Made by a program: the position numbers and the translations under genes | Shown: in pieces, positions 48,896 to 55,601 of the stretch | How positions within the stretch are numbered: the stretch's first letter is position 1 | How the letters are laid out: every line of letters begins with the position of its first letter | The notes under the pieces: model-generated | The model's database searches: none | The model's input: the letters and a program-made list of their open reading frames with translations, nothing else | Told to the model about the DNA's origin: nothing | Assembly: GCF_000355695.1 (NCBI RefSeq) | Contig: NC_020891.1 | Location: 1,798,001 to 1,862,000, forward strand | Origin: Clavibacter nebraskensis NCPPB 2581 | Lineage (GTDB): Bacteria; Actinomycetota; Actinomycetes; Actinomycetales; Microbacteriaceae | Length of the DNA: 64,000 bases | Direction of reading: 5' to 3'

Positions 48896-50110
48896 CTACT
48901 GCGGCGTCGGCGCTCCCACTACGTCGAGAATTTGATGGGCCACCTGCTCCTTGGAGCCGGAGGCCTCCACGAGTGTATCGCCGGACCTCGCGAGCACCGT
49001 GATGGTGTTGCGCTCCGCGGTGAACCCGTGAGACCATCCGACCCTGTTGACGACGAGCAGGTCGCAGCCCTTCCGCTGGAGCTTGGCGCGGCCGATCCGG
49101 AGTAGCTCGGCCGGGTCCTCCTCGGTCTCCGCCGCGAAGCCCACGACGACGCGGCGCGTGCCGTCCGCCCGCGGGACGGCGGCGTCGGCGGCGAGCCGCT
49201 GCAGGACGTCCGGGTTCCGCACGAGCTCGACGGAGAGCGCGTCGCCCGCCTCCTCCTTCTTGATCTTGCCCGCGGAGACGGCGACGGGTCGGTAGTCGGC
49301 GACGGCCGCCGCCATGATGACGACGTCGGCGCCGTCGGCCTCGCGCACCATGGCGTCGGAGAGCTCGAGCGCGGTCGAGACGGGCACCACGCGGACGCCC
49401 GCCGGCGCGGGCACCTCCAGGTGCGCGGCGACGAGAATGACGTCGGCACCGCGGTCGCGGGCCGCGACCGCGAGGGCGACCCCCTGCCGGCCGGACGAGC
49501 GGTTGCCGAGGAAGCGCACGGGATCCAGCGGCTCGCGCGTGCCGCCGGCGGAGACGACGACGCGGCGCCCCTCGAGGTCCCGCCCGCCGGGGCGGACGGC
49601 GGCGAGGGCGGCGGCGATGACGTCCTCGACCTCGGCCATGCGGCCCGGCCCGGAGTCCGTGCCGGTGAGGCGGCCCGACGTGGGGCCGACGAGGGTGGCG
49701 CCGCGGGAGCGCAGGAGCGCCGCGTTCGCCTGCGTGGCCGGGTGCTGCCACATCTCGGTGTGCATCGCGGGGGCGACGACGAGGGGCGCGCGGCTGGCGA
49801 GGATCGTGGTGCCGAGCAGGTCGTCCGACAGACCGAGCGCCATGGTCGCGAGCGTGTGGGCGGTGGCCGGGGCGACGACGATGAGGTCGGCCTTCTGGCC
49901 GAGCGCCACGTGGCGGACCTCGGAGACGCCGTCGTAGAGGTCGCTCGTGACGGGGTTGCGGCTGACGGCCTCGAGCGTGGGCTTCCCGACGAAGCGGAGC
50001 GCGGCCTCGGTGGGCACGACGTGCACGTCGTGGCCGAGGAGCACGAGGCCCCGGACCACGCCGACGGCCTTGTAGGCCGCGATGCCGCCCGTGATCCCCA
50101 CGAGGACCAT
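48896..50110 (-). CDS. coaBC: Bifunctional phosphopantothenoylcysteine decarboxylase / phosphopantothenate-cysteine ligase
   Basis: Two steps of coenzyme A synthesis in one protein of 404 residues. The N-terminal flavoprotein domain has ITGGIAAYKAV and MHTEMW; the loop where Escherichia coli has GRLACG with an active cysteine reads SGRLTGTDSGPGRM, without that cysteine. The C-terminal ligase domain has SAGGTREPLDPVRFLGNRSSG, AAAVADYRP and KIKKEE. ATG at 50110 is used; a GTG at 50113 is equally possible. Confidence 0.95.
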   Translation of the reverse strand: MVLVGITGGIAAYKAVGVVRGLVLLGHDVHVVPTEAALRFVGKPTLEAVSRNPVTSDLYDGVSEVRHVALGQKADLIVVAPATAHTLATMALGLSDDLLGTTILASRAPLVVAPAMHTEMWQHPATQANAALLRSRGATLVGPTSGRLTGTDSGPGRMAEVEDVIAAALAAVRPGGRDLEGRRVVVSAGGTREPLDPVRFLGNRSSGRQGVALAVAARDRGADVILVAAHLEVPAPAGVRVVPVSTALELSDAMVREADGADVVIMAAAVADYRPVAVSAGKIKKEEAGDALSVELVRNPDVLQRLAADAAVPRADGTRRVVVGFAAETEEDPAELLRIGRAKLQRKGCDLLVVNRVGWSHGFTAERNTITVLARSGDTLVEASGSKEQVAHQILDVVGAPTPQ

Positions 50111-50189
50111 CACGCGGCGGCGCTCCGGTGCCGCGTGGCGGGGCGGGCGTGCGGCGTGCGGTCGGCGCGGGGCATCCGGGGCGGTGCGG

Positions 50190-50459
50190 CTAGGAGGCCG
50201 CGGGCTCCGCGATGGGCGTGGCGACGAGCTTGTCCTCGTTGATCTCGTGCATGGCGACCGAGAGGGGCTTGTCGTCGATGGTGGAGTCGACGAGCGGTCC
50301 GACGTTGTCGAACAGGCTGCCCTCGTGCAGGTCGGCGTAGTAGTCGTTGATCTGGCGGGCCCGCTTCGAGGCGAAGATCACGAGCGCGTACTTCGAGTCG
50401 ACCTTCGAGAGGAGCTCGTCGATGGGCGGGTCGATGATGCCCTGGGTCTTGTCAACCAT
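50190..50459 (-). CDS. rpoZ: RNA polymerase omega subunit
   Basis: The 89-residue omega subunit helps fold and assemble the beta' subunit of RNA polymerase. The conserved [22 protein letters not shown] (about 19-40) and the helical remainder match actinobacterial RpoZ. ATG at 50459 has a GAGGGAG ribosome site about 10 bases upstream. It lies between gmk and coaBC, the standard order. Confidence 0.94.
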
Positions 50460-50487
50460 GGATGTGCCGCTCCCTCATTGCATGGAA

Positions 50488-50526
50488 GAAGGCCGTGCGG
50501 GTCCGCGTCATGGACCGACGGCCTTC
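50488..50526 (-). repeat. Hairpin across the end of gmk, before rpoZ
   Basis: A 9-bp stem (50488-50496 with 50518-50526) with inner 5-bp pairing encloses the gmk stop codon. It may reduce read-through from gmk into rpoZ or mark a processing site. Confidence 0.4.
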
Positions 50527-51416
50527 CTGGATCTCATCAAGTCTACGACCTCGCGCGCCGCCTCCGCGACATCGCGGTTGACGACGAGGTGGTCGAACTC
50601 GTCCTGCGCGGCCAGCTCCACCTTCGCGGTGTCCAGCCGGCGCTGCTGCTCCTCGGGCCCCTCGGTGCCGCGGCCGACCAGGCGGCGCACGAGCTCCTCC
50701 CAGGTGGGCGGCAGCAGGAACACGAGCCGCGCCTCGGGCATCGCGGCCCTCACCTGGCGCGCGCCCTGGATGTCGATCTCGAGCAGCACGCTCCGACCCT
50801 CGGCCAGCGCGGCGTCGATGGGCGCGCGCGGGGTGCCGTAGCGGTGGGCGTTGTGCACCGTCGCCCACTCGAGGAGCTCCTGCTGCTCGACCATGCGGTC
50901 GAACTCGGCGTCGGAGACGAAGTAGTAGTTGACGCCCTCGACCTCGCCCGGACGCGGCGCGCGCGTGGTGGCGGAGACGGAGAGCAGCACGTCGGGCTCG
51001 TTCTCACGGATGAATGTGGAGACGGTCCCCTTGCCCACCGCGGTGGGACCCGCGAGCACGACGAGGCGGCTGGGCTCCACGATCTGCTTCGCCGCCTGCC
51101 ACTCCTCGAGGAAGCGCGTGAGGCGCACACGCTGGTGCACGCCCAGGCCGCCGAGGCGCTTGGCGGTGGAGATGCCGAGCTCGGCGAGGATCCGCTCGAG
51201 CTTGGTGGGGCCGATGTTCGGGATGCTCGTGAGGAACTCGGTGACGCGGAGGGTGGCCTCGGCGCGGCGGGCCGGATCCGCGGACGCGTCGAGCACGCCG
51301 AGCGGCGTGCGCTCCCCCGTGACGATGTCGTGCTTCACCTGCGCGCGCGCGCGACGGGCGGCGACGGCGGCCTGCGACGCGGCGACCCGGTCGACCTCGG
51401 GTGGTTCGGGCCTCAT
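50508..51416 (-). CDS. gmk: Guanylate kinase with N-terminal mIHF domain (fusion)
   Basis: A 302-residue protein in two parts. Residues 1-107 resemble actinobacterial integration host factor (mIHF): a basic helix [13 protein letters not shown] (18-31) and the helix-hairpin-helix segment [19 protein letters not shown] (64-82). Residues 117-302 are guanylate kinase, which phosphorylates GMP: P-loop GPTAVGKG (123-130), [19 protein letters not shown] and EIDIQGA. In most actinobacteria mihF is a separate gene exactly between pyrF and gmk. ATG at 51416 overlaps the pyrF stop. A GTG at 51080 (residue 113) could also start a 190-residue kinase alone. Confidence 0.94.
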
Positions 51417-52311
51417 GGCAGCACCTCTTCGAGTCGTCCGGCGTGGTCGGTGACGGCCTCCGCGACACGCCGTGGCCCTGCCGCGAGGATACTCCGCGAC
51501 GCGGCCGCGATCACAACGCCGGCGGCCGGGCCGAACAGCTTCCGGACATCGCCGAGCAGCGCGCCCTGGTGGCCGAAGCCGGGCGCGAGGATCGGGGTGC
51601 GGACGAGCCGCGCGAGGTCGAGCCCGGCGTCCGCGGCGTCGACGGTCGCGCCGACCACGAGGCCGAAGGCGCCGGGATCCGTCGAGGGGGCGTCGAGGGG
51701 GCCGTTCGCGGCGACGGCGGCGTCCTGGATCCCGCGCGCGACCGTGCGCGCGGCGGACCCGGCGGCGGATCCGTCGGCCGGGAGCACCGCGCGCTGCAGG
51801 TCCCGCGCCTCGGGGTTCGAGGTGGCGGCGAGGACGAAGACGCCCGCGCCCCACGCGTCGGCCGCGGCGCGGACGCCGTCCAGAGATCCGACGCCCGTGT
51901 AGGCCGTGAGGGTGACGGCGTCGGCGCGCAGCGGGCTGTCGGGCGCGAGCCAGGCGGCGCCGTACGCGTCGACCGTGGAGCCGATGTCGCCGCGCTTGGC
52001 GTCGGCGATCACGAGGAGACCCGCGTCGCGCGCCGCAGCGAGCACGCGCTCGAGGGCGGCGTACCCGGCGGATCCGTCGCGCTCGAAGAACGCGACCTGC
52101 GGCTTGACGATGCCGGCCCGCCCCGCGGTCGCCTCGACCACGCGCAGGCCGAACTCCTCGAGGCCGCGCGCGTCGTCGGCGAGGCCCCACGCGTCGAGCA
52201 GCGACCGGTGCGGGTCGATGCCGACGCACAGGTGCCCGCGCTCGCGGAACGCGCGGGCGAGGCGCGCGCCGAACGGCGGGGCGACCGGGGCCGCCCCGCC
52301 ATCCGCGATCG

Positions 52312-52315
<4 letters not shown>
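51413..52315 (-). CDS. pyrF: Orotidine 5'-phosphate decarboxylase, type 2
   Basis: Last step of UMP synthesis. The 300-residue protein is of the longer type 2 family: [15 protein letters not shown] near the N-terminus, VKPQVAFFE and the catalytic Asp-Lys array [18 protein letters not shown], and PGFGHQG late. GTG at 52315 overlaps the carB stop (GTGA). Confidence 0.95.

Positions 52316-55601
<3,286 letters not shown>

Follow-up and report, generated by a model that had tools for sequence, protein, structure and literature searches.

The window analysed here, a whole stretch of 64,000 nucleotides from the genome of Clavibacter nebraskensis NCPPB 2581, contains a gene in which an actinobacterial integration host factor (mIHF) domain and a guanylate kinase (Gmk) are joined in one frame, and we confirmed that this fusion is real and family-wide in the Microbacteriaceae. 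Both parts belong to known protein families and are ordinary, and their combination is unusual. We consider it reasonably probable that the gene encodes a bifunctional Gmk whose N-terminal extension is the only mIHF of the cell and is predicted to bind DNA. One polypeptide would then have two functions, with a C-terminal domain acting as an ordinary guanylate kinase (GMP + ATP -> GDP + ADP) and an N-terminal domain serving as the organism's only actinobacterial IHF, binding DNA without sequence preference. Because the kinase would share one chain with a DNA-binding domain, at least some of the Gmk would be carried on the nucleoid, with the two activities held at a 1:1 ratio. The genome is a single 3.06-Mb contig whose nearest named relatives are Clavibacter (96-98% identity). 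The features of the locus are as follows.

50508..51416, minus strand: fused mIHF-guanylate kinase gene, 302 aa plus stop (profile matches; joined frame also in relatives)
51413..51416, minus strand: ATGA overlap of the pyrF stop and the fusion start (sequence reading; pyrF by Pfam)
51111..51392, minus strand: actinobacterial IHF domain, residues 9-102 (NF041260, 67.3 bits; genome positions 1849111-1849392)
51066..51089, minus strand: linker, about residues 110-117, with GTG codon 113 at 51080-51078 (pLDDT dip; GTG not conserved)
50529..51068, minus strand: guanylate kinase domain, residues 117-296, P-loop GPTAVGKGT (TIGR03263 and Pfam; invariant residues)
50190..50459, minus strand: rpoZ (RNA polymerase omega), the next downstream gene (Pfam RNA_pol_Rpb6)

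The fused gene runs from an ATG at 51416-51414 to a stop at 50510-50508 as a single 302-codon frame, just as the original prediction had read it, without giving the strand. It is preceded by carB and pyrF and followed by rpoZ and coaBC, and four bases (ATGA) are shared between the end of pyrF and the start of the fusion. This overlap, together with the closeness of mihF and gmk in 79 loci where the two are free-standing, fits the earlier proposal that the fusion sits at the usual place of mihF. It was noted that two further long, GC-rich open frames overlap the gene, one of 606 aa on the opposite strand (50082-51902, plus strand) and a frame of 695 aa (50508-52595, minus strand) that lies in the same frame as the fusion and extends upstream of its ATG; most likely neither is coding.

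The assignment of an mIHF-like domain and a complete guanylate kinase to one frame was upheld by NCBIfam and Pfam (residues 9-102 and 117-296). For the kinase half, TIGR03263 matched residues 117-294 with 215.1 bits (cut-off 160.45) and Pfam Guanylate_kin matched residues 116-296 with 142.1 bits (cut-off 25.2). A 64-row alignment showed G123, P124, G128, K129, S148, R152, R155, Y164, E183, D215, R245, R249 and R260 to be invariant, residues that we take to be those of the P-loop and the GMP site, and an active kinase would be expected. Similar to other bacterial Gmk proteins (TIGR03263; PDB 1znw), the full kinase domain is present (best PDB match E 2.7e-59, residues 114-295); unlike them, it follows an N-terminal DNA-binding-type domain of approximately 110 residues. 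PDB matches also included MAGUK proteins such as DLG4, which likewise hold a guanylate-kinase fold within a multidomain protein. The kinase domains of MAGUK proteins are mostly inactive, whereas catalytic-type residues are kept here, and the partner domains are unrelated.

The mIHF half exceeded the cut-off of 60 bits for NCBIfam actino_IHF (NF041260) at residues 9-102, and Pfam H2TH_5 matched residues 55-100 (39.4 bits, cut-off 27). Its layout comprises a long basic helix (10-33), a helix-hairpin-helix region (approximately 58-80) and a KRLGGLG loop (86-92), and both the basic N-terminal helix and the helix-hairpin-helix are reflected in conserved residues and in helices predicted by AlphaFold2. 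The domain resembles mIHF of Mycobacterium and sIHF of Streptomyces in its profile match, its sequence matches to PDB 6tob and 4itq, its place beside gmk and its invariant residues R21, R24, K28, L91 and Q95. It differs from the free-standing small protein (msIHF has 105 aa; PMC3724605) in being part of a fused chain, and in its score, since free mIHF reached 134-149 bits among the matches listed compared to 67 bits for the window's domain. The same paper describes DNA bending and sequence-unspecific DNA binding by msIHF. In literature searches that combined mIHF with guanylate kinase, rpoZ or the Microbacteriaceae, or guanylate kinase with Clavibacter, none of the papers listed appeared to concern this fusion. 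The NCBI class of the actino_IHF model, "equivalog_domain", suggests that its curators may know longer mIHF proteins.

We followed a suggestion of the original prediction and searched the whole genome for a second mihF gene by profile. Only one match exceeded the cut-off, namely the fusion; the sole further match, of 15 bits, was ribosomal protein S13. Likewise, the fused gene was the only TIGR03263 match in the genome. Other nucleoid proteins elsewhere in the genome comprised one HU-type match and two Lsr2 matches.

The extent of the fusion in the Microbacteriaceae, another check that had been proposed, was assessed by scanning 150 genomes of the family (f1) with a full-length profile, of which 148 matched. 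We found the joined frame in 137 of the 150 genomes as one match over both domains; the fusion is thus not due to chance or to an annotation artefact, and it spans the whole family, a reach that the first reading had missed. In one additional genome (G147) contig ends truncate the fusion but leave its junction whole, and in another (G009, a MAG 86% complete; loci L066/L076) it was frameshifted. Nine genomes possessed the kinase without an mIHF domain, and neither domain matched in two poor MAGs (75% and 66% complete). Scanned with only the mIHF profile, 140 of the 150 genomes matched, including one S13-like match (G013, 20 bits, positions 53-101). In the full-length scan 139 genomes possessed an mIHF domain, and none of them carried two separate intact genes: 138 keep the junction and G009 is the frameshifted one.

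Stops within the match were recorded in five of the 137 fused family genomes, all of them C-terminal. In the genus g85, 147 of 149 genomes matched; in 146 a single match spans both domains, and in one (G243) it is split over contig ends. A stop was listed in 31 matching rows and was C-terminal in 30, whereas the remaining row (G312, L108) reads through both domains as a single open frame. A re-splitting of fused genes by stops was ruled out on these grounds. Two of the nine kinase-only genomes (G095 and G081) also list a stop inside the match.

Outside the family, the two genes appear to be separate. An order-level scan of 248 genomes (18 of f1 and 230 of other families) yielded no stop-free match over both domains in the 230 other-family genomes among the matches listed (at least approximately 300 bits), a threshold below which weaker fusions could have escaped notice; in these families mihF and gmk adjoin as separate genes. 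A phylum-level scan of 346 genomes at E up to 1e-100, at which divergent fusions would be missed, recorded six f1 genomes and one genome with an internal stop (G764). Of 80 relatives, 49 were fused and 31 separate, and 48 of the 49 fused genes were intact, with L171 frameshifted. The fused relatives include Clavibacter, Leifsonia, Curtobacterium, Herbiconiux, Salinibacterium and Leucobacter, with two labelled as Actinomycetota MAG, and the separate-gene relatives include Cellulomonas, Streptomyces, Gordonia and Brevibacterium. The order scan, the titled relatives and the free loci all agree with the earlier statement that mihF is a separate gene beside gmk in most actinobacteria. The frameshifts of L171 (Clavibacter michiganensis CASJ009) and of L066/L076 both lie in the mIHF half and are possibly assembly errors.

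The free loci also suggest how the joining could have occurred. The median distance from the mihF stop to the start of the kinase domain was 35 nt (n = 79), both genes were in the same frame in 27 of the 79 loci, and the gmk open frame started right at the mihF stop in 23, so that a single stop loss would join both. Most simply, the fusion would have arisen once, at or near the base of the Microbacteriaceae, when mihF, already adjacent to gmk, lost its stop codon, and the DNA-binding surface would have been altered after the joining. In a gmk tree built by a quick method from 76 rows (omitting the long-branch rows of 5 fused, 4 kinase-only and 3 free genes, and with the free rows halved), fused and kinase-only rows grouped together against the free rows (SH-aLRT 97). 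We infer a single origin. A single fused clade is allowed by this tree (AU p 0.765), so that secondary loss of mIHF in the nine kinase-only genomes is not proven, early branching being allowed as well. Weighing against the main reading, a 102-row tree required four label changes for "fused", with a base that lacks resolution and contains long branches. It was noted that the nine kinase-only genomes (L067-L075) measure 1.1-2.4 Mb; in six of them a start codon close to the kinase reaches a Shine-Dalgarno energy of -5 kcal/mol or better.

An AlphaFold2 model of the fusion, built on a 64-row alignment, had a mean pLDDT of 93 and a pTM of 0.68. Helices were predicted in the mIHF half (block mean pLDDT 86-98 for residues 1-100), the last of them at 93-109, and residues 111-120 around the linker reached a mean pLDDT of 70. 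The model speaks for the bifunctional reading, as do the functional msIHF-EGFP and msIHF-mNeonGreen fusions reported in PMC10028186. The same evidence also suits a neutral fusion, in which stop loss joined two neighbours that each go on working on their own and whose connection is functionless, an account that we regard as plausible while falling somewhat short of probable. The close spacing of mihF and gmk in free loci favours it, the modelled pTM and weak linker give no sign of a fixed domain contact, and mIHF tolerates foreign fusions (PMC10028186). Against neutrality stand the junction kept in 138 of 139 family genomes with the mIHF domain, none of which has two separate intact genes, and the joint change across the family of positions that are conserved in free mIHF; both findings are compatible with a neutral link all the same.

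We compared 132 unique fused with 82 unique free mIHF domains to characterize these changes. R21, R24, K28, L91 and Q95 were identical in all 132 fused and all 82 free domains, and G69, like R21, R24 and K28, was invariant in the 132 fused domains. K occupied position 16 in 80 of the 82 free domains compared to 12 of the 132 fused ones, position 86 was R in 82 of 82 free domains and K in 130 of 132 fused, and position 89 was R in 76 of 82 free domains (R or K in 79) and G in 122 of 132 fused. In the last helix, position 102 was R in 54 of 82 free domains and aromatic in 128 of 132 fused. The motif RRxRGLG of free mIHF has thereby shifted to KRxGGLG across the family, and the window's domain reads K86 R87 L88 G89 before GLG. 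Basic positions that are usual in free mIHF and lost in the fused domain comprise K16, K32, K55, K70 and R89 (changed to G). Positions 66, 86, 87 and 89 are presumably M. tuberculosis P150, R170, R171 and R173, by alignment to 6tob, and Sharadamma and colleagues reportedly described a role of these residues in DNA binding. This characteristic change of the fused DNA-binding domain is a second point that the original prediction missed.

The fused domains were found to be strongly basic, with a median pI of 11.4 and a median net charge of +8 compared to 10.2 and +6 for free domains, although these medians come from slices of unequal length (103 and 90 residues, respectively). Such a higher overall charge argues that binding has not simply been lost. 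With +3, however, the domain of the window itself carries the lowest net charge among 89, and together with the lost basic positions this suggests that its DNA binding may be weak, a point against the bifunctional reading.

The two halves also differ in constraint. In a more balanced set of 56 fused and 33 free genes, mIHF evolved 1.1-1.5 times faster relative to Gmk when fused than when free. The mIHF/Gmk tree-length ratio was 1.79 in fused genes (5-95% range 1.60-1.98) and 1.18 in free genes (1.02-1.40), with fused higher in 60 of 60 subsamples, and the pairwise-distance ratio was 1.56 versus 1.38. A strong relaxation of mIHF after fusion (median ratio 1.61 fused, 0.87 free) was discarded, as its free loci had been chosen by best score and the balanced set gave a smaller difference. 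Among 19 close fused pairs (Gmk dN under 0.05; from the 30 listed of 51 independent pairs), dN/dS of the mIHF half was 0.00-0.23 with a median of 0.07. When the full set of 51 fused pairs is taken, which includes many distant ones, the medians were 0.24 for mIHF and 0.20 for Gmk, with mIHF exceeding Gmk in 34 of the 51, and this weighs against the bifunctional reading; the 25 free pairs gave 0.12 and 0.21. These ratios indicate that both halves of the fusion are under purifying selection.

These data bear on whether the mIHF half is still a nucleoid protein. It may instead serve Gmk, through stability, RNA-binding or oligomerisation, with HU and Lsr2 taking over the nucleoid role; we regard this as rather unlikely. 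The shifts at positions 89 and 102, the faster evolution of the fused half, and the presence of one HU and two Lsr2 matches in the genome would suit such a change of role, and the absence of the mIHF domain from nine family genomes both favours it and speaks against the bifunctional reading. It is opposed by the invariance of R21, R24, K28 and G69, the strongly basic character of the domain and the low dN/dS in close pairs. The basic charge, the unchanged R21, R24, K28, L91 and Q95 and the same low dN/dS argue for the bifunctional reading, in which DNA binding would be retained.

It had further been proposed that an internal GTG at 51080 could allow the kinase to be made alone, so that both forms may exist, and this idea proved weak. 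The GTG at codon 113 was encountered in three of six other Clavibacter loci, with ATC or GTC in the other three (one of the six, the frameshifted L171, was read on DNA). The linker stretch, scored from approximately eight codons before the mIHF end to the kinase start, contained no ATG, GTG or TTG in 77 of 132 unique fused genes, and a conserved internal start is therefore unlikely on codon evidence. Two products, the full fusion plus Gmk alone through an internal start or linker proteolysis, are improbable in our estimation, even with the Shine-Dalgarno energy of -5.8 kcal/mol at codon 113 and the weakly predicted linker in their favour. Among 61 gmk genes that stand alone, including the nine kinase-only loci, only 17 have a start of -5 kcal/mol or stronger, so that Shine-Dalgarno strength is uninformative for internal starts. 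A single uncut product would be expected for the bifunctional Gmk.

A family that keeps mIHF only inside an essential enzyme offers a natural experiment on why mIHF is essential: its dosage is tied to Gmk, loss of basic residues is tolerated, and members without the domain exist. In M. tuberculosis, mihF is essential, with gmk and rpoZ downstream and polar effects (PMC6155035). Mycobacterial mIHF is essential, yet its chromosome-shaping role has been judged presumably dispensable for survival (PMC6155035, PMC10028186). The fusion makes the mihF-gmk link directly testable. The fusion might even be a nucleoid protein that senses metabolites, in that binding of GMP, ATP or (p)ppGpp by the kinase half would alter the hold of mIHF on DNA, or DNA binding would alter kinase activity, which we consider very doubtful; if true, the guanine-nucleotide state would be read directly on the chromosome, and the mihF-gmk-rpoZ neighbourhood of other actinobacteria would reflect an older functional link.

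It was also noted that an mIHF match was absent in 26 of the 248 order genomes (for example family code f4, and G197 of f18), some of them near-complete with a normal gmk. From these profile searches mIHF seems dispensable in several lineages of the order, though it is essential in mycobacteria. Table 4 of a Clavibacter nebraskensis study (PMC7839047) lists a 10-kDa "integration host factor", AJW80270.1. Judged by its size this is perhaps an HU-type protein, in which case its name misleads beside the mIHF fusion.
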